From assembly GCA_001600455.1 (NCBI GenBank), contig BCKC01000003.1:4882754-4946753 (forward strand): a DNA stretch of 64,000 bases, read 5' to 3'. Shown piece by piece: positions 455-39,734 of this stretch. The notes beneath the pieces were generated by a model that was given only the letters and a program-made list of their open reading frames with translations, did not search any database and had not been told where the DNA came from. Both the position numbers and the translations under genes were made by a program. The number at the start of each line of letters is the position of its first letter. Within the stretch, counting starts at the first letter, position 1. This DNA comes from Endocalyx cinctus. Taxonomy: Eukaryota > Ascomycota > Sordariomycetes > Amphisphaeriales > Apiosporaceae.

Positions 455-967
455 CCTGGGCGAGAGAAGGAAATATGTAATGTGATATGTCTCTCTTTTT
501 GATTCGTTTCCTTTGTTCCCTTTCTTTTTTTTTTTTCCCATGCATTTTTGATGGTCCCTGAGCATTTATCAGGTTGCGACTGTGGGAGTAGCGTGGTATT
601 GTAAAGGATAGCATATTAGACGGCAACCGGGGAGTATTAGAACCACAGATTTGATTTTACCTACTATATAGAATAGACATTCACAGATTCATTTCTTTTT
701 CTACCCTTTTGCTTCGCATACCGAAGATACTATTAATTTGCTTACTTGTGTTCGGCCAACAAATGTCTTAAACAGACAGAATATCAAATATATCATGAAC
801 ATAAGCCGTTGGCACGGTAATCATACTGGTGCATGGTATCGAAGGTCAAGCCTAGCGTAGGATATTTCATATTTCATCAAGATGTAGCAAAAAAAGTATA
901 TACAAAAAATTGAATCTGCATTTCAATGGCCAACTCTCCTTCCCAGCAGCAGTTCAAACATTTTAAC
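455..967. other. 3' intergenic region between convergent genes
   Basis: This stretch separates the ends of the Mpv17-like gene (+) and the cellobiose dehydrogenase gene (-). It is AT-rich with a T run near 525-538. It presumably holds both 3' UTRs. I see no credible coding exon. Confidence 0.6.
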
Positions 968-3900
968 TTATAGGCACTAGAAAACAAGGAAGTAAACGAA
1001 GTTAGCAACGTTCGAACGGCAGGGAAAAAAAGGGGAGTGAGGGAAAGCTGGTCACTCACCTGAGAGTAGTAGTCGTTCTGGAACTGGCAAGTGTAACCGG
1101 AAGCGCACTGGAAGCTTCCGGTGTAGCCGAGACCGCCGCACTGGGCGTATTGGGCGCCGGCTTCGGCGGTGGCGAGAGCGAGAATACGCTCGGCCGCGTG
1201 CTCGGCTATGACGACGATGTACGCGCTCGGGTTGGCCGTGACGTGGCCCGGGAAGATGCTCGCGTCCACGACGAACAGGTTATCCGTGCCGTAGACGCGC
1301 GTGTCGAGGTCGACCACGGCGCTGCCGTCGTTCACGCGTCCGTCGTCCGTGCCGATCTTGGACGTTCCTGTGGAGAGCATGGGTGGTCAGCAAAAGGAAG
1401 GGAGAATTGTTTAAGAATAGGAGATTAAAAAAAAAAAAAAAAAAAACTTACCGATCCAGTGGTTTGACCGTCGGTTGGTGTACGATACGAGCATCTAGAT
1501 GGTTCCCGCATTAGCTTAAACTACCTTGTGCTTTCGGGTTTATTCATAAAGTAATTGATATCTAAGGCAACTTACGTCGTTAACGAAGTCCTCGACGGTT
1601 TCATCGGGAGAGGGAACAGCCCAAGTAAGGTTTGCTACGCCTGATAAGGCAGCCTGGACATTCTTGATTCCCTGGATGACCGCCTGGACGTCATTGTCGT
1701 CGTTAAGGTACGGAAGGGTAGATACGACGGTTGTCAAGGCCTTGGTGATAGTCATACGTCCTCGAGATACGGCGCCACGGCCAAGGTATTGGCTCATGGT
1801 AATAGCCTCTGAAGTTACGATTAATACCTAGGAATTCAGAAAGATCGTGATATGAAGAGGAAATTGGAGAATGACATACTTGTGTCCTCGATACCCGCGC
1901 TGCCTTCCACTCTGGCCGTCCACTCGAGTTGTCGCACAATGCCGTCGGGGCCAGTTACCTCGTCAAAGAACCTGGTTTACGTTAGTAAGAAACATACAGC
2001 AAAGACTTTTCGAGACGCATACATAGGGCCGATGTTTGGGGCTGCTTGAGCAAGTATTCCAGATCGCGAGTCTGTACCGTTCGAAAATTAGTATAGAATT
2101 TCAAGTTTCTATATGCTATATGATGAAACCTTACCGAGGTACATGCTCTCGTCTGTTTCGATGGGATCGTCGTAAGCCTCGTAGAAGTCGTAGAAGACGG
2201 TGTTAGGGTGTTCGACGACAAGGTCAGTCTATAACAAGCAAGTTGTTTAGTACTATAATCATCGCATATGCTCAAAAGCTACAAGCTCTACTAACGTTGG
2301 TATGGTCTTCCAAGTTGTAACCGACGGGTAATTCAATCCAGGAACTATTAGAGATCATAGTGGGTCCATCGGTAGACGTAGAGACGACCTCTAGTTGGTC
2401 GGAAGGACCAATTCCACCTGCGTTCAATGTTAGAAGTGGCAATCGAGATCTATAATGAAGTTACTCACTTCGTAATAAGATCTTGGCGGATCCAAAGGTT
2501 CCGGCAGAAAGAATGACACGTCCCGAGACCGATGTCACGTTAACAGTTCCGACGTATCCATCATCTCCGTAAGCTTCGACTTCGACACCGGTAATATGAC
2601 CACCGGTACGGACTACTCGCTTCACAGCCGTGTTCATCCACAAATCGAAGTTGCTACGCTCGTTGGCGGTGACAAGATAAGTAGCCATCGGCCCTCCTCT
2701 TTCACCATTGATAAACATGAACGGGGCGTGAGTGAAGGTGTGGTTTTTCTGACCAGGTACGTCGTTAGCGACCACTTCTGTCCATCCGCCCTGCTCCAGA
2801 CCGCCGGCTATGACCTCGAAACCCTCTTGGTAATAAAGTTGTCCATCCTGAGAAGGGATGTATGTTCCTGGAATCCTAGAGAAGACTCGTTCTGTTGCTG
2901 CCTCCATGTCAGATGACTGCCATCCGCTAGGGAAGTTATAGTCCCAATCGAGAGGATTCGGCTGCGTTGACAGTTAATTAAATGCTGGTTGGAAAGTCAG
3001 AACTAGGAGACATACCTTCCACCATAATCCGGCATTGATGGCGGTACCTCCACCGAGGACACAGCCAGCCATCTGATCAGTATCAGTACATGAGATACCG
3101 TCGGAGTCATGCCAGATCTGGTTGCAAAGACCCGGTACATCGAACCGAGTCAAATTTGTGTCTTCTGTCCAGTCGGGTCCCCACAAGTCACTGCCACCCC
3201 ATCTTCCCGAAGACGGCGGTCCCTTTTCAATCAGAAGTACACTGTTTCCGGCCTCGCTAAGCTTGTCGGCGATGGGGATACCACCAGCGCCCGCACCGAT
3301 CACGATATAGTCGTAAGAAGTTGCCGTCGGAACCGGTATCCCAGTTGGAGCCGCGGTGGTAGTGCTGGTAGGCGTCGCGGTCGTCGACGTTCCACACTCT
3401 CCAGTAACTGTAGCAGTAGCCAGAGCAGCCCAATCGGTATATGATGGGTTAGCGACATTGTCGTCAAGTGTAGCTCCCCAGATTCCTTCACCGTTATCGT
3501 GCTGCGAAAGAGTTATCTCAGTTGGGCAGCTGGGGTTACCGGGACTAGGGAAAGCATTACACCATCCCAAGACCAAGACTCCAGAACTAGTAGATGCCGA
3601 GCCCGACGCTCCGGACTGGTCCCAAGTAAGACAGTTCTGGCATCGGAAAATCAAGCTGTAATGAGTCTCGTTGATGGTTGATGATATCTGAGTTAGTTCG
3701 GCATCGCCGGTATAAACATCAGGCATGGTGTATCCAGTAGCGAATAGTAAGGAAGTTAAAATCTGATCTTCGTAAGGATATGCCATCAGAAGCAGGCTGT
3801 TCGTCATAGGACCACCGAGTGAAACACCGCACCATCCGGTAAGAGTAGTGCTGTTAGAACCACATGTCTACGGTTTTTTTTTTCTCTCTTGGTTAGCGAT

Positions 3901-22395: not shown

Positions 22396-25372
22396 TAGGC
22401 GTTAATTTTCTATCAGCTGTCTTCTGAATAGGAGAAAATTCGTTTTAAGTTGGTCTGCTAAATAAATCGTCAATCTGTGAGGTCCTCTGTCTTCGTCGTC
22501 TGCGAATTGTGGAGAAATATCCGTACCAAGAGTCGTTAATCAAAACTTGAAATAACTAATTCAGCAATATATTGCACCATTCTGGCACGGAGTTGTTTCT
22601 TTCATCTTCTCTTTTCTGGATTTGAAAATCTATGCATACTATAGTCTCCGTGACACATTTAGTGATTAGTTTATTTCAGTTAAATGGCTAACGTGGGAAC
22701 ACATAGTATCATTACGTAGATGTATAATGAGGGTTAACATCTATGGATAGATACTACGTATCAGCTGACTGAGACCGGGACATACTACCGGCTTGTGTAT
22801 AACCCCTGAATATAATTTACCATCGCTAATGATTATTTCTAAGTTTCCAGACAAGTCTACAAGGACACAAATATTTCTGGGTTTTATTTGCGAAGCCTGG
22901 GATTGGCAGTTTGCCACGGGACAAGAATACGCATTGTGGACTAAATATATATTTACGGGATCAAATTGCATCTATTTTTACAGATTGTATCCCTACACCA
23001 CATTCGTCCTATTGGCGGTCACGGTGTTTCCAGTTGTGGGAATCTCTAGCGAAGACAATATCTACGCATAAAACAATAACAGAAGTCATCTGCTCCGTTT
23101 CAACGTACGATAACTCTCGGATATGGACGGCTGATCTTCGGTGATGAAGCGTGTTGATTCACCGAATATATCTAGGCTCGCACGATGACGAGTATCTGCT
23201 TATATTATAGGTACACAGCTTGATAGTACAGCTAAGGGATTAATTTCTCGAGTTATGCTCCTTTAATATAATTTAATTTTGAACTAACGTCAAGGAAACG
23301 GAAAAACTTGATTGCGCCTTGTATATATAGCTCACATTGCCTACGTACTAATTATCCAGAAGTTATCTTGCCGTCAAATAAGTTGCTGTGACATAATCCA
23401 CCGTGATGATCTGTTGGCCACCGAAGAGGCAAGCTAATATCGATGGAGCTTAATTAATAGCTGTATTACCCCCTTTACCAGTCAAATACGATGACCAAGT
23501 ATTCTCCAATCGATTTATCGAGTTCGTAGGGTTCCTACAAAATTTTCGAAGTGCTAACATGTTATAATTCAAAATTTGTTTTTAGATCTTAGGAAGCCCC
23601 TATTTACAGCTAACGTTTGTGATAAACTTAAGCTTTAACTTGGGGTTTCTTCCACTCATTACCCCTGAAATCAGCGGGTTATCTGCCTTATAATTACTAG
23701 AAATAAAATTTAGAGCACTTGCGTAGCACTCACCGGCTCTAGCACTGGTCGGAGGAGGTAGCCCCTTACATATCGCACATGCTGCAATATTTTAGCAATT
23801 AAGAAGTTGAAGTTCCCTCGTTCTAATATATCGAGCCGCTGATCGTCAGTTCTATTTCCCATTATAACATAAGTGAAGATTCGACTATCACCTTCTCAGT
23901 GCAGGGCCAAGACGAAGCTACCAATTGGATAAATAGGCGTGCGGATAGGGGTATAATAAAAGCTTATTGACAGGGTTTCCTTAAATCCCGAGAGGATAAT
24001 TGACGACCAACCATCGAAGTTCGAAAATTCCCATACCCCGTTACATCTGGATAATATTAGTAGAGTCTTGACATTTACTTGACTTACCCCACATCTCGGC
24101 ATCGTTTATTTGAGGTGCCAGTGTCTGTCAATAAACGCTCTTAACCCCAAGCCTACGGTCTGGTCCGAAGATCGTTCTCCAAATAAGATCAATTTTTATG
24201 AATAACCCGGGCTGGTTATACAAACCTTTATTTATATCATTGGATGATCCCAGGGCGTAAACGATGTATGGTTATTTAATTATGCTGTTTTGTTTAGTAC
24301 TGTAATTATGTCCATCTACTGGCACAACTGCCCCTCACATAATAATTCTTAGCATTTAATATCTTAATGCCGCACCTGTAGTTTACGTTATAGCCATTAT
24401 ATTGTAGCCGGAACTTGACACAATGTAAGATTTACTCTTTTTTTTCTCACTCCCAGTTAACCTTGCCAAAACTTCTTGTGAGGTCCAAATTACTGTATTA
24501 ATCACCGTACTCCAGCTTCGCTTCGCTTCTTTAATTATCCCCTGTAGTGGACTGAGGCTCAAGCTGAGCATCTAGTCAGAAATTCTTTGGTAGAGATATA
24601 CATAACTTGGGTCTTCTTGCGGGTGGTTAACATTAACGGTACGGTGATTCTATCTCCGCATGATGGGCCGGGCGGCCCGGGTAACAGCAAGCAGTATCGC
24701 CACAAGAAAAGGGGGTAACCTCGCCCTATCATTCGTCATTGGACTCTTGTTTTATCCTGCTGATCTCAATCCTAGAAGGGCTGTTTTCAATAGAGACTTG
24801 ACGTAAGTTTGGTATTTCGCTATATTGCCGCGGAGTATTCGGGCCCTCACCGTTACATTTCTGGCACTTGCAAATTAATCGGTAGACCTCGCTCTCAGTC
24901 TCCAACACAGCCACGCTCACCCTCCAATCCCATTGGTAATTTAATTTGAGCCATATGGCTTTCGTTATTAACTTTGATTTACTTTGCATTAGACTGTTTT
25001 CTCCTCCCCCAGTATGATGACCATGCTATTGACTGCACTCCTCTTAGATCTCATCTTGAAACCAGCAATCCCCCAGACTTGGCGTATATTCCCCATGGAG
25101 TCGTTTACATCGCCCAATGCGGCAATATTCAGTTATAGTATGTCAATTTATCAGTACCACCCTACTGACGACCTAATATGACGACTTAGAGTTAGCTTCC
25201 GACCCGGCGGCAAATTAGGAGAGATGAGCTTGGGGTGACGAAGCTACCCTGTACTCGTTGAAGGCTATAAGAATAGCCGTATCTCTTGTTTCATTTTTCG
25301 AGTTCACGATTTCAAGTTCACCCATCATTGAAACTCTTCTCTAATCCATCACCTTAGTAATCAATCGACATT
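22396..25372. other. Gene-poor AT-rich region upstream of the GH7 gene
   Basis: About 3 kb with only short, unrecognised ORFs (for example 24729-24989 on the minus strand). The last 170 bases are the likely promoter of the cellulase gene, annotated separately. Confidence 0.5.
25200..25372 (+). promoter_or_regulatory. Proximal promoter of the GH7 cellulase gene
   Basis: Contains a perfect 6-bp inverted repeat, GGCTATAAGAATAGCC (25263-25278), whose centre includes a TATAAG TATA-like box about 105 bases before the ATG. A GGCAAATT element at about 25209-25216 fits the loose GGC(A/T)n site of the XYR1/XlnR cellulase activator. The match to known sites is by consensus only. Confidence 0.4.
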
Positions 25373-27081
25373 ATGTTGCCTCTCGTCGCAGCAGCCCTAG
25401 TCGGGCTCGCATCGGCCCAACAGGTCGGTGACCAGCAAACTGAGACTCACCCCAAGATGACTTGGAGCGACTGCAGCAGCGGTAGCTGTACTGAAGTCAG
25501 TGGTGAAGTCACTATTGACGCGAACTGGCGATGGCTTCACGGGACCGAGGGCACCGAGAACTGCTACGACGGAAACGAATGGACCTCCGAGTGCAGCAGT
25601 GCCGAGGACTGCGCCAGCAAGTGCGCTCTCGAGGGCGCTGACTACGATACAACCTACGGTGCCTCAACCAGCGGTGACTCCCTCTCTCTCAGCTTCGTCA
25701 CCGAGCACGAGTACGGTACCAACATCGGCTCTCGATTCTACTTGATGGCCGACGAGTCCAGCTACCAGATGTTCACGCTCATGGGTAACGAGTTCACCTT
25801 CGATGTTGACCTCTCCACTGTGGGCTGCGGTCTCAACGCTGCCCTCTACTTCGTTGCTATGGACGAAGATGGTGGTATGGCCAAATACGACACCAACACC
25901 GCCGGTGCTAAGTACGGTACTGGCTACTGTGATGCCCAGTGTGCCCGTGACTTGAAGTTTGTTGGTGGCAAGGTATGTTTGCCCTAAATATAGTGAACTA
26001 CTTATACTTAGAAGACGTGATTTAATCTAACTGCATCGTGCGTAGGCCAACATCGATGGCTGGGAGCCCTCTTCCAATGATCCTAACGCCGGTGTCGGTC
26101 CTTACGGTGGTTGCTGCGCTGAGATCGATGTCTGGTACGCGTTTACCTATAAAATTTGGAATCTTTTTTCCACTATTTAGTCTAACTTGAAGTTCAGGGA
26201 ATCCAACTCTCACTCGTTCGCTTTGACTCCTCACCCTTGCACGGAGAACACATACCACGTCTGTGAGACCGACAGCTGCGGTGGTACCTACTCCGAGGAC
26301 CGATTCGCCGGAAAGTGCGATGCCAACGGTTGTGACTACAACCCGTACCGCATGGGTAACCAAGACTTTTACGGCGAGGGTAAGACCCTCGACACCTCTA
26401 AGGTGTTCACGTAAGTTTCTATTTTTGTTTTATTAATCAAGTCAACATAACTCGACCTTTTTTAAATTATTTTATTTCTCTAACGTGATACTCTCTTCAG
26501 CGTCGTCACCCAGTTCGCCGAGAACAAGCTCACCCAGTTCTTCGTTCAAGATGGCACCAAGATTGAGATTCCCGGCCCCCAGGTTGACGGCGTGACGTCT
26601 ACTACTTCGGACATTACTCCGGAATACTGCACGTCCGTTTTCGATGCCTTGGACGACCGCAACCGATTCGATGAGGTTGGCGGATTCGAGCAGCTCAACG
26701 CTGCCCTCGAAGTTCCCATGGTTCTGGTCATGTCCATCTGGGACGACGTAAGTTCTCTTGCGCACCCCTCTGTTATTTACTTTCCAGATCCGTTTTCGCT
26801 GACAAACTTTTGTAATTTTAGCACTACGCCAACATGCTTTGGCTCGACTCCAGCTACCCTCCCGAGAAGGCTGGTCAGCCCGGTGGTGACCGTGGTGACT
26901 GCCCTGAGGACTCCGGTGTCCCCGCCGATGTCGAGTCCGAGTCTCCTGACTCGTATGTTTTGCCCCCCCCCTTTTTATTACACATTATTTTAATCTCGTA
27001 TACTGACTTACTTCTCTTTACAGCAAGGTCATCTGGTCTAACATCCGTTTCGGACCCATCGGCTCAACCGTTGACGTCTAA
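25373..27081 (+). CDS. GH7 cellobiohydrolase (Cel7-type), single-domain
   Basis: Six exons, 25373-25972, 26046-26134, 26198-26410, 26501-26747, 26822-26952 and 27024-27081, give 445 residues. A signal peptide ([15 protein letters not shown]) is followed directly by [16 protein letters not shown], the usual mature start of the family. The catalytic triad motif E-x-D-x-x-E is intact in AEIDVWESNS, split by a phase-2 intron inside the Trp codon. Cysteine-rich blocks ([22 protein letters not shown] region, [10 protein letters not shown]) fit GH7. Length and the late [13 protein letters not shown] block favour a cellobiohydrolase acting from chain ends over a shorter endoglucanase. The protein stops just after [11 protein letters not shown], so it has neither linker nor CBM1. 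It is secreted and would act with the cellobiose dehydrogenase of this window on cellulose. Confidence 0.94.
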
Positions 27082-32548: not shown

Positions 32549-33599
32549 TTAAAAAATGGCTTGTTGGTTATACAACTCAGCTTGGATCTGTAGGGGTCCA
32601 CCTGCCCCAGTGCACGTACCGGAGTTCAGAGCGCCGGTGACCGTTTGCATGGGGCTGGCACAGTCTCCTGCGGCGAAAACGCCCTTGACGGTGGTCTGGT
32701 TGAAGGGTGGGTTTACTTTGATAGTATTCATCGGAGTAATCTCGAGGCCTAGCTGTTGGGCCAAGTCTCCTCGTAACTTTGTCTTAGGCTTGTGTGCTAG
32801 GAAGCCTTCTGTTTGGCAAGTACCGTCCTCAAACTCGAGTGTAATACACGCGCGCTCAGGAGCCTTAACCAGCTGGGAAATCTTTTTCGAGTTCACAGTC
32901 ATCGGCGCGGGCGCGGCCTCCAAAGCATAGATCAATTCTTTGGCTAGCTGTTCATTTCCGTTGGTGTAGATGGTGACTTGATCTGCCATGCGTAGTGCTT
33001 GACGGGCAAGGTGTAGAGCCGTCACAGCTATACCAGTGTCACCTTCGGCTAGCATGCCAGCGGATGGAATACCTCTTTCCTCCCAGCCATGACAATAAAG
33101 GCAATGGAAACTTAGAAATATCCGAGTGAATTAGCTTCTAGTATAGTGAATCCTGAGAAAAAGATGCGAAGAAGTTAAAAAGTACTCGTGTGCAACTTCG
33201 TACTTACATGCCCGAGACCCAGCATTCGGCATAGCCTGGAATATTTGGGAATATATCTTCCACACCAGTAGCGAGAATGACTTTCTTTCCAATCCACGTC
33301 TTTCCGTTCTCTGAGGTTGCTTCGAAGAGCCCATCTTGGCGCTTTTTAAGAGTCTTTACATGCACGTTCTCCACCGTGATTGAGCTGTATCGGTCAAAAT
33401 CGGCTCGAGCGGCGGCACGGAACTCTTCCGGGTCTCGGTGATCCCAAGAAGGCATAGTATGCAGGTGCTTACTCGAACCATTCCGGTACTGTTCTGAGTC
33501 AAAGAGCACCGTCTTATGGTCTTGGCGCACGATTGACGAGGCAGCGCTAAGGCCTGCCGGGCCTCCTCCAACGAGGATTATGTCATATTCAGAAGACAT
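32549..33599 (-). CDS. Thioredoxin-reductase-like FAD oxidoreductase (GliT-like dithiol oxidase family)
   Basis: Two exons, 33208-33599 and 32549-33110, give 317 residues. The FAD-binding start is YDIILVGGGPAGLSAASSIV. A redox-active Cys pair C-L-Y-C follows the intron in FHCLYCHGWEERG, and the second nucleotide-binding end is VKGVFAAGDCASPMQTV. Length and the C-x-x-C-H-G-W-E-E context fit the fungal family that includes GliT, HlmI and other dithiol oxidases or thioredoxin-reductase-like enzymes of secondary metabolism. Members form disulfides or act as simple oxidoreductases with FAD. The intron uses an AAG acceptor (reading ...TTTCTAAG), which is less common; it is the only one I found that keeps frame. 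There is no signal peptide. It sits 1.3 kb from the UstYa-family gene, on the same strand, and may be part of the same cluster. Confidence 0.87.
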
Positions 33600-33967
33600 G
33601 GCGGACGAGGTGACGATAATGCAAATGTATCAATTCAATAGATGCTAGAGCTAAGAGAATGAGGGTTGTACGAGAATGCGAAGCTATTAAAAGTCATGCG
33701 AAAGACGATTATAAACATAATAATTATCCGATGCTCGGTCACCAGTTGGCTGTGCGTTTCCTTGAGGGGGCGGTTTGGGGGCCTTTTGAGCACCTCTAGG
33801 GATCCACTTCATAAGGTGACACTACCTAAGAAGTTTATGATGTATCCCTTACTTGATATAAATAGACACAGGCTGTACTGTGGTCGAGCTTAACAAGATA
33901 AGAAAACGATAGGGGTTTTTAAAAATCGTTCCGTAGAGGCGTGTAGAAGACCCTTCGTAAACTCAGG

Positions 33968-34947: not shown

Positions 34948-35993
34948 TCAAATCACGTTCTCAAATTCTTCGCTTAGTTCTAGGCTGTTTAGTATCTCTT
35001 CCCTCCCATCCACGTCAAGCCTTCTATCTTCAGCCCACGCCTCGAGGTGGTTCCAGTCGGTACACTTTCTAGGCCCCGTTCGATTTCCCTTGAACTCGTA
35101 TCTATTTTTCCAGAAGTATGTATTGAATGTAACATCCGCATTACACATGACTCCGTCAATCAAAACCTCCAGGCAATGATCTGCCAGCAGCTCTATTAAT
35201 TAGTACGAAAACTGATACACCATGAAACAAATTACTGACCGCGATGCTCGGGAGTGAATGAGCCATCTTTAGCGATATCGAGATAATATTCTGGGTATTG
35301 TGATTGATAAAATCGTTTCTAGTGTACGTTAGAGGTTTGCCACGCCGTCTGTAGGATCGAATAATAATAGCTTTCACTACAAGGGGATTTCGTACCACGC
35401 AATGAAGCATATGATAAGCTTCTAGGTAGCCAATATAGCCACTGCCGTCTTGCAATGCAATGGACGATTTGTTCATCCTCTCCAACTCGTCCTTCGAGAT
35501 TACGAGCATCGATGCTATGATGTGCAATCAATATCAGGGCATGCTGCTGCAATGTACTAGAGCTATACTTCCTTACATCGTAGCAGGTGAGACCAGGCTT
35601 GATCAACCTCTGGTCGAGGGTCGCCAGTGAATGAATTTAGATCGTAGCTAGACTGTCGTGATATATACCGAATGGCAGGTTCTGCCGGGGCTGAGAGTCT
35701 CAGCATTAGCAATAGAGAACCCATCTTCGATGTCTCTTGTACTCACAAAATACACCTTCAAGGCCCACAGTAGCCGAGCTATTGACGGGCGCGGTAGATG
35801 CGGCTCTCATTCTTCCTAGAATCGTGATATTCAGGAGAACGAGGCTGATCTGGAGGAAGCAAAGTATTCCATGTAGTGTCAAGCATCTTTTAACTTTCGA
35901 GAAATACGGTTTTCCTCCCCGCAGAATTTTGGCTTCGCTGCATGTATCATCTTCGCTGGGGAGAAAGGTTTCTTTTTCGTCGGCCGAAAGCAT
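34948..35993 (-). CDS. UstYa-family (DUF3328) oxidase-like protein
   Basis: Five exons, 35747-35993, 35577-35690, 35396-35514, 35240-35318 and 34948-35192, total 804 nt and 267 residues. The order fits UstYa: a cytosolic N-terminus; one transmembrane helix (about residues 38-58, LHGILCFLQISLVLLNITIL); SPAEPAIRYISR; DPRPEVDQAWSHLL; ISKDELERMNKSSIALQDGS; the first HxxHC motif in YHMLHCVKRFY; YPEYYLDIAKDGSFTPEH; a second motif region LLADHCLEVLIDGVMCNADV; NTYFWK; and KGNRTGPRKCTDW. UstYa proteins catalyse oxidative macrocyclisation or C-H functionalisation of peptides in ustiloxin, asperipin, phomopsin and cyclochlorotine pathways. One oddity: the second HxxHC reads L-A-D-H-C, lacking its first His. 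The gene starts 1.36 kb from, and divergent to, the repeat-peptide gene at 37350. Confidence 0.9.
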
Positions 35994-37349: not shown

Positions 37350-37603
37350 ATGATGCTAGATATGAGGTACACTATTATCACGCTTTTTCTGGCAGCCATT
37401 GCTGCTGCGGTGCCTTCGCTTTCCAGTGAGTATTATATTTCATGTCACCACTGTCAACGTTGAAAAAAAAAAAAAAAAAAAAGACTCATGAAGTATGTAT
37501 AGTTATCGAACATCGCGATGGCACCACTAAGATTGATCCTGACGAAGGCTTCAATGTGAAAAGAGACGGCACAACTGGGATGGATCCTGATGAAGGTTTC
37601 TAA
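37350..37603 (+). CDS. Candidate RiPP precursor: secreted peptide with two repeats and a Kex2 site
   Basis: Two exons, 37350-37425 and 37503-37603, joined by a phase-1 intron (GTGAGT to TATAG, containing a run of about 19 A), code for 58 residues. ATGs at 37350 and 37362 are both in frame; the second gives a classic signal peptide, MRYTIITLFLAAIAAAVPS. After a short spacer come two units, DGTTKIDPDEGF and DGTTGMDPDEGF, separated by N-V-K-R. The second unit is preceded by Lys-Arg, the Kex2 site; the first by His-Arg. The 36-nt units differ at seven bases: four are synonymous and three change only residues 5-6, which suggests selection on the peptide. Signal peptide, Kex2-bounded repeats and an adjacent UstYa-family gene are the defining set of dikaritin-type fungal RiPPs. 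I do not recognise this core. A secreted pheromone-like or effector peptide is the main alternative. Confidence 0.72.
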
Positions 37604-37771: not shown

Positions 37772-37810
<39 letters not shown>

Positions 37811-38589: not shown

Positions 38590-39734
38590 ATGGACGACAC
38601 TGTAAAGAACCCAGAGATCAATGAGCGTCTGACCCAATTCATTATTTGGTTTCTTTTCATAACAGCAGGCTTCAGCGTGTGTGCGCGCCTGGGCATAAAA
38701 TATGGAATAACACGTGCTTTATATTTAGATGATTATCTCATTATTGCCACTCAAATAATATATCTTGGGCAGTGTATCGCCGTTTCTCTCGCCACCTCGA
38801 CAGGCTTCTGGTCGGACTCGACCTCCATTTCGGAGGGAACACTCGACTTCGGCTTGAAGGTGAGCAACTCATGATCCCAGAATAGACTAGAGGAGAAGAT
38901 AAATATTTACTGACAGAGTATACTCAAGGCAGAATACGCCAGCATTCCACTGCTGATAATATCTTTAGCTCTAGTCAAATGGTCGAATTATGCCTTCATC
39001 AGACAACTTAGTCCAATAGGTTATCACCAGATGTTAGCCCTGGGATTAGCCATTTTGGTAGGCTTGTGGCTAGTATCTACGACTATGTCAGCATTTTTCC
39101 AGTGTGCATTACCAACGCCCTGGGATTATGTAAGTGACCATTACTGCATAAACCGGGTAGGTTATCCAGAGCCTTCTCTTTTCTTCAAAAAAAAAAAAAA
39201 AAAAAGTTGAACTCCTACTCTGACTAAGTATTATGCTAGCGAGCTTGGTGGACATACGTTGCTGTACTAAACGTAGTCACAGACTTTGGTTTGGTTGGCT
39301 TGTATCTGCTCATAATTACGACACTTCAAATATCGATAGTTAGAAAAGTCGCTATATCTGTTGGTTTTACATCAAGATTTCTGTAAGCTAGGCCCCTTAT
39401 AATTATTTTAACAAGCCTATCAACTAATTAACATGAATCTTTTACCAGAGTTGTGGGAGTTACTATAGCGCAGCTCAGTATATTCCGCAACGGCGAATTG
39501 AGCTTGGATGCTGTGCAACGGAGGTGGCTCTCATTCGTCTTGAACCAAGCCATCCTGAGTACCAGTGTGATAACTGCGTGCGTGCCTTATCTAAAACCAT
39601 TCATGCAAAGTCTCCAGTCCGGCGTGAACCATGTAATAGACGATAACTCTGCGTATGAAGACGAGTTGATTCGCTTACCCCAGCCATCGACCACTTCGCA
39701 TTATAACATGCATTCGAGTCATAGGATAGACTAG
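38590..39734 (+). CDS. Fungal rhodopsin-like (Fung_rhodopsin domain) integral membrane protein
   Basis: Four exons, 38590-38859, 38917-39129, 39240-39382 and 39449-39734, total 912 nt and 303 residues. Seven hydrophobic segments are visible. Conserved pieces include an N-terminal helix followed by C-A-R-L-G-I-K-Y-G and the L-D-D-Y-L-I-I motif; LKAEYASIPLLIISLALVKW; FQCALPTPWDY; VLNVVTDFGLVGLYLLII; and the late S-V-I-T-A-C-V-P-Y-L-K-P-F. These fit the large fungal rhodopsin-domain family, which includes SAT5/PTH11-neighbour proteins and often lies in or beside secondary-metabolite clusters. No retinal-binding Lys is expected in this family and none was assigned. The second intron holds a run of about 18 A. 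Role unknown; it may be a cluster passenger. Confidence 0.85.

Follow-up and report, generated by a model that had tools for sequence, protein, structure and literature searches.

Does a spliced open reading frame of only 58 residues in the genome of Endocalyx cinctus encode a genuine RiPP precursor and, if so, what kind of peptide would it yield? The frame lies on the forward strand of the window, by which we mean the whole 64,000-nucleotide stretch analysed here (bases 4882754-4946753 of contig C3), and an earlier note on this DNA had taken it for a precursor with two Kex2-bounded repeats. Reading the window sequence, we obtained the same 58-residue frame, with exon 2 (37503-37603, TAA stop included) separated from exon 1 by a predicted intron of 77 nt (37426-37502, GTGAGT...TATAG). 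A search of the genome (44.76 Mb in 15 contigs) revealed two intact paralogues, one at C2:2214390-2214684 with two DGTTEFDPDTAF units and a degenerate unit upstream, the other on the minus strand at C9:17016-17286 with two DGDTPLNVDVDYKI units. Their introns, of 61 and 64 nt, match that of the window in position and phase, and in all three copies the single intron, of phase 1, directly follows the signal-peptide-like segment. The common exon-1 size and intron phase thus provide independent support for the window intron. By contrast, the start at 37350, which would make exon 1 run from 37350 to 37425, needs revision: if translation begins at the third ATG, 12 nt further in, exon 1 (37362-37425) comes to 64 nt and ends in phase 1, matching the two intact paralogues, so that 37362 is the likelier start, with a predicted product of 54 residues, and 37350 is an upstream in-frame start.

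The predicted product opens with a signal-peptide-like segment, MRYTIITLFLAAIAAAVPSLS, in which inspection reveals a hydrophobic MRYTIITLFLAAIAAA followed by VP, a feature kept in the paralogues. Two 12-residue core units, DGTTKIDPDEGF (37517-37552) and DGTTGMDPDEGF (37565-37600), come after it, the second running up to the stop codon, with one Lys-Arg, a predicted Kex2 site (37559-37564), between them. The earlier description of the repeats as Kex2-bounded therefore holds for the second unit, whereas the first has no dibasic site and is directly preceded by His-Arg only. The unit spacing, 16 residues, is common to the three intact precursors of this genome, and Pfam contains no match for the window precursor. 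Long runs of A occur in its intron (20 nt, 37463-37482), downstream of it (37786-37810) and in an intron of a nearby Fung_rhodopsin gene (39187-39205); runs of this kind may cause trouble for gene prediction.

In the two copies that are informative on selection, the window gene and its C2 paralogue, the constant thing is the peptide, not the DNA, as had been proposed from the window units alone. These differ by four silent changes (codons 1, 3, 9 and 11) and three replacement changes, the latter found solely in codons 5-6, a pattern that our recomputation confirms (pS 0.52, pN 0.11); when the seven changes were randomised, 1,766 of 200,000 draws altered two residues or fewer. The units of the C2 paralogue show eight nucleotide differences, all silent, and none of 200,000 random eight-change draws preserved the peptide. 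The C9 units are identical in DNA and hence uninformative on selection.

Searched alone against proteins, the 58-residue sequence yielded one candidate, and none with E<=10. A profile of the three copies, however, scored 1,420 candidates and retrieved 34 relatives at E<=10; for 30 of these E was no higher than 1e-3, the best reaching 4e-22. The named sources include Xylaria, Astrocystis, Poronia, Hypoxylon, Podospora, Triangularia, Cytospora, Septoria, Pseudocercospora, Paecilomyces and Aspergillus ellipticus, genera which we take to represent Sordariomycetes, Dothideomycetes and Eurotiomycetes. Many of these relatives bear database names, as hypothetical proteins, so the notion that routine annotation misses a gene of this size does not hold in general. 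Together with the three own copies, the relatives gave a table of 37 sequences, some of them fragments, and 93 units, collected with a pattern fixed as R-DG-x-[T/A], which makes positions 1, 2 and 4 conserved by construction or nearly so. The consensus core is DGTTEFDPDxx[F/L/Y], its last residue being F in 56, L in 22 and Y in 12 of the 93 units, and Phe occupies position 6 in 83 of the 93; the window copy lacks this Phe and diverges from the consensus at positions 5-6 (KI, GM) and 10 (E). Repeat number varies among the relatives, as the earlier note would have it for a precursor of this kind: there is one unit in 4 sequences, two in 13, three in 17 and four in 3, counts that take in annotated or fragmentary proteins, last units that are cut short and the degenerate upstream unit of C2. 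Later units follow KR or RR in 53 of 56 cases; for the first unit, the preceding residues are RR or KR in 21 of the 37 members and a single Arg in 16. One further genomic hit, C14:160142 (E 1.0), was dropped as a candidate paralogue; it has neither repeat nor Pfam match, and on inspection the DNA around it looks like an ordinary enzyme gene encoded on the opposite strand.

A UstYa-family gene on the minus strand (34948-35993, stop included) starts 1.4 kb upstream of the precursor. Its spliced model of 267 residues (exons 35747-35993, 35577-35690, 35396-35514, 35240-35318 and 34948-35192) is open throughout and apparently intact, scores 131.6 bits against PF11807 (cut-off 25) and is 58% identical, at full coverage, to a protein of Nemania abortiva; the three best homologues are from Nemania and Xylaria. 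Among solved structures, none matched the sequence of the UstYa homologue P0001 at E<=1. The UstYa neighbour that the earlier note had named as something to look for is found at both intact paralogues as well, the distance between precursor and UstYa being about 1-2.5 kb in all three cases. In the genome as a whole, 53 UstYa exon hits merge into 32 loci, and by simple arithmetic the chance of three out of three precursors lying within 3 kb of one is ~1.5e-7.

The UstYa genes concerned are also related to one another. We ran a profile of 29 foreign homologues and the window's own sequence over the loci taken from the genome, and a UstYa gene on contig C10 (C10:864991-865479, L030) scored beside those of the window, C2 and C9, exon by exon. 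We placed 64 rows in a tree, of which 34 are from this genome (exon hits in the retrieved loci only, with a few genes appearing twice) and 30 are made up of the protein-search homologues and the window model. Here exactly four own-genome rows (window, C2, C9 and C10) group with 27 foreign homologues, with modest support (0.64 locally, 0.91 at the next larger node, which adds one tip). L012, which topped the profile table by virtue of one long exon, falls outside this clade in the tree and was rejected as a member.

It was the search outward from this clade that turned up the C10 locus, and all four own-genome members of the clade have a core motif nearby. The C10 DNA encodes MVERRDGSTEFDPDFFLKA and then a stop beside UstYa exon 2 (about 2277 of L030; C10 near 861-866 kb), and we read this one-core relic as a decayed fourth precursor locus. 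UstYa exon 1 was not detected there by the UstYa profile, and a limited set of ATG/GT/AG combinations over ~370 nt upstream gave no in-frame exon 1 for the precursor; a DDE_1 transposase-like ORF in the flank (L048 1135-1944, in the same part of C10) fits a decayed locus. The whole-genome protein searches missed the C10 motif and are thus not exhaustive. The motif scan took in the window, C2, C9 and C10 and, for 30 of the 53 UstYa exon hits, ~1.5 kb of flank in each direction, for which reason the absence of the motif near other UstYa loci carries little weight. A different UstYa gene, on C6 near 30 kb, adjoins another KEP-like precursor (L025 about 540-735, plus strand) with some five tandem units such as DASDIDVADAF and KR between them, acidic and Phe-terminal like those of the window.

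The association extends to other fungi at the level of contigs. Seven assemblies, matched by name and locus-tag prefix, are represented both among the 29 hits for UstYa and among the 34 for the precursor, and in five of the seven both hits fall on one contig, as judged from a size identical to the base in the two lists: X. curta (94,895), X. grammica (569,172), Podospora australis (468,998), A. ellipticus (353,065) and Cladorrhinum sp. PSN332 (882,970). In Poronia punctata and Hypoxylon texense, the hits are on different contigs. For Cytospora mali and Paecilomyces variotii, the two lists contain different strains, and these species were left out of the count.

Downstream of the precursor, on the plus strand, lies a gene for a membrane protein of 312 residues (38590-39734; exons 38590-38859, 38917-39156, 39240-39382 and 39449-39734) that matches Fung_rhodopsin (PF20684; 84.2 bits, cut-off 27) and is a recurrent cluster partner. 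The C2 locus contains two UstYa genes, an FAD_binding_3 gene and a Fung_rhodopsin gene, one piece of which is over the cut-off and the second without a match; the C9 locus contains UstYa, Fung_rhodopsin and an FAD_binding_3-like gene that reaches 25.9 bits (cut-off 22) in hand-joined pieces, the single pieces having no match. Precursor, UstYa and Fung_rhodopsin are therefore common to the window, C2 and C9, with an FAD_binding_3-type gene in two of the three. At C10, an FAD_binding_3 gene shares 57-62% identity with the one at C2, and a piece of Fung_rhodopsin, lacking a Pfam match of its own, is 53% identical over 53 residues to the C2 counterpart. When this locus is included, an FAD_binding_3-type gene is present at three of four loci and a Fung_rhodopsin relative at all four (at C10 by identity to the C2 piece only).

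The window itself encodes, on the minus strand, a pyridine-nucleotide-disulphide-oxidoreductase-like flavoprotein (32552-33629, PF07992 in both open stretches), of a different family from the flavoprotein genes at the other loci; its membership of the cluster is possible but unproven. Farther out are an amino-acid permease and a P450, and the part of the window ORFs that was scanned includes no peptidase, tyrosinase or methyltransferase. Elsewhere in the window, a cellobiose dehydrogenase cytochrome domain (2977-3867, minus strand) and a GH7 glycoside hydrolase (25361-25984, plus strand) suggest a fungus able to attack cellulose.

Genome-wide, too, Fung_rhodopsin genes seem to occur in the vicinity of UstYa genes more often than expected. 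The two further sites that match the window protein at E<=1e-6 are each close to another UstYa gene, at ~6 and 10 kb. Furthermore, with an incomplete list (150 of 271 candidates scored, the window's own copy not shown, and the copies at C3, C2 and C10 found by a targeted look) and with most contig sizes in the simulation estimated, a listed Fung_rhodopsin gene falls within 10 kb of 7 of the 32 UstYa loci, where random placement gives 2.0 on average (15 of 5000 placements reach 7); at 15 kb the count is again 7, with a random average of 2.9 (116 of 5000). Among the literature matches listed for UstYa and rhodopsin, nothing looked relevant by title.

Given the gene structure shared by three copies, the conservation of the peptide, the family and the linkage to one UstYa clade, we consider, with a probability of roughly 0.86, that the product of this window gene is a secreted dikaritin-type precursor with several cores, Kex2-processed and UstYa-modified, and that its core family is new. 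The original reading as a RiPP precursor is thus well supported by the family, the repeats and the UstYa neighbours. By analogy with the dikaritins (PMC10512285; PMC9233826), the signal peptide would carry the precursor into the secretory pathway, Kex2 would cleave after Lys-Arg, and carboxypeptidases would remove the basic tail, releasing acidic peptides that correspond roughly to DGTTKIDPDEGF and DGTTGMDPDEGF. In linear form these two cores have calculated [M+H]+ values of 1294.580 and 1241.463, respectively. The product of the nearby UstYa-type gene might oxidise the core by cross-linking, desaturation or hydroxylation, and the Fung_rhodopsin membrane protein, perhaps with the flavoprotein, could contribute to tailoring, transport or sensing. 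A further review associates UstYa/DUF3328 proteins with cyclisation, chlorination and hydroxylation and, in phomopsin, with desaturation of Ile, Asp and Pro (PMC10880069), so that Asp-Pro-Asp of the core could be desaturated as well as cross-linked. A cross-link at the terminal Phe of the units, raised in the earlier note, is a conjecture for which victorin, described in a review as cyclised between the side chain of its C-terminal Phe and an internal Leu (PMC9233826), sets a precedent; like victorin, the window units end in Phe, and they have Ile or Met mid-core. As a general rule for the family it is, however, ruled out, given that Leu is common at the last position (22 of 93 units).

A bolder extension, to which we give only a small chance, is that the acidic DGTTEFDPD core acts as a UstYa-modified signal with a Fung_rhodopsin-type protein as cognate sensor, exporter or means of self-protection, the whole forming a conserved peptide-communication module in filamentous ascomycetes. 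This reading draws on the Fung_rhodopsin relatives at four of four loci and near other UstYa genes. Somewhat less probable is that the window copy is a decaying or non-expressed duplicate that makes nothing, a possibility that overlaps with the explanation offered for the family as a whole. Indeed, its two units, the monobasic first site and single dibasic site, and the replacement of the E-F that the consensus has at residues 5-6, by which the Phe at position 6 is lost, may indicate divergence or weakening, and the fourth locus on C10, flanked by the transposase-like ORF, has decayed; yet the frame, splice sites, Lys-Arg site and stop in the window are all intact, pS between its units exceeds pN, and the adjoining UstYa model is open and well above the PF11807 cut-off.

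Less probable again, and in our estimate unlikely, would be an unmodified linear signalling peptide, pheromone- or hormone-like, cut by Kex2, with UstYa coincidental or acting elsewhere. Alpha-pheromone cores are rich in Trp, and the window precursor contains none; moreover, an alpha-type precursor would combine a pheromone core with the lack of a DUF3328 neighbour, and here UstYa adjoins. The core is unusually constant across species, as expected of a ligand, and a KEP survey reports a DUF3328 neighbour for 22% of KEP genes, most doing without; the same survey states, on the other hand, that annotated pheromone precursors lack such a neighbour with three exceptions (PMC7329392), and UstYa is linked to the family at all four own loci and in five of the seven shared assemblies. 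That the frame arose by chance, its repeat a DNA duplication without coding meaning, can be practically dismissed: although it is short and retrieves no homologue on its own, the same-structure paralogues, the silent divergence of the units and the relatives found with the profile all speak for a gene.

How, then, does this dikaritin-type family relate to what has been described? To our knowledge, its core resembles none of the known dikaritin cores; that of victorin, for one, differs in sequence. The dikaritins (ustiloxin, phomopsin, asperipin-2a, victorin and, in some counts, epichloecyclin) likewise combine a signal peptide, Kex2-separated repeats and a UstYa/DUF3328 neighbour (PMC10512285; PMC9233826). 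The family differs in its acidic core of 12 residues, DGTT..DPD...F, in the scarcity of Tyr (present in 20 of 93 units and in neither window unit) and in unit number, 1-4 against the 16 given for the ustiloxin precursor (PMC10512285). KEPs, as outlined in the two surveys (Le Marquer 2019; Umemura 2020, PMC7329392), are similarly secreted with Kex2-separated repeats, and several relatives of the window gene have 3-4 units. Both surveys demand at least three repeats, however, and this threshold places the window gene, with its two units, and the two intact paralogues outside them; 20 of the 37 family sequences have 3-4 units, and such three-unit relatives may be present, unnamed, in the supplementary tables. 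In a study of Venturia, even a single repeat sufficed, with a minimum repeat size of 10 residues (PMC9632046).

The letters of the core are absent from the running text of 5.39 million papers, a search to which figures and supplementary tables were external, and the literature on dikaritin, UstYa, DUF3328 and Xylaria that we consulted contains no description of it. A study of Hypoxylaceae and Xylaria hypoxylon looked for RiPPs by similarity to known precursors and reported ustiloxin-like clusters in a few species, its authors adding that their coverage could not be judged (PMC8403587). We conclude that this is a conserved, apparently undescribed core family within the UstYa-associated kind of precursors.

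According to a 2022 review, no more than five dikaritins have been reported, although there are at least 838 types of precursor (PMC10512285), and the present family adds a dikaritin-type precursor with a cluster signature consisting of one UstYa clade, Fung_rhodopsin and, at three of four loci, an FAD_binding_3-type gene. Its core is nearly constant across the fungal classes to which its sources presumably belong, whereas the survey stressed the diversity of such cores (PMC7329392). Repeat-based surveys are blind to precursors that have one or two cores, and an outward search from one UstYa clade should yield further such precursors. The same approach might help with the UstY-type clusters of lichens, the candidate precursors of which, according to one study, lack repeats (PMC12048977).
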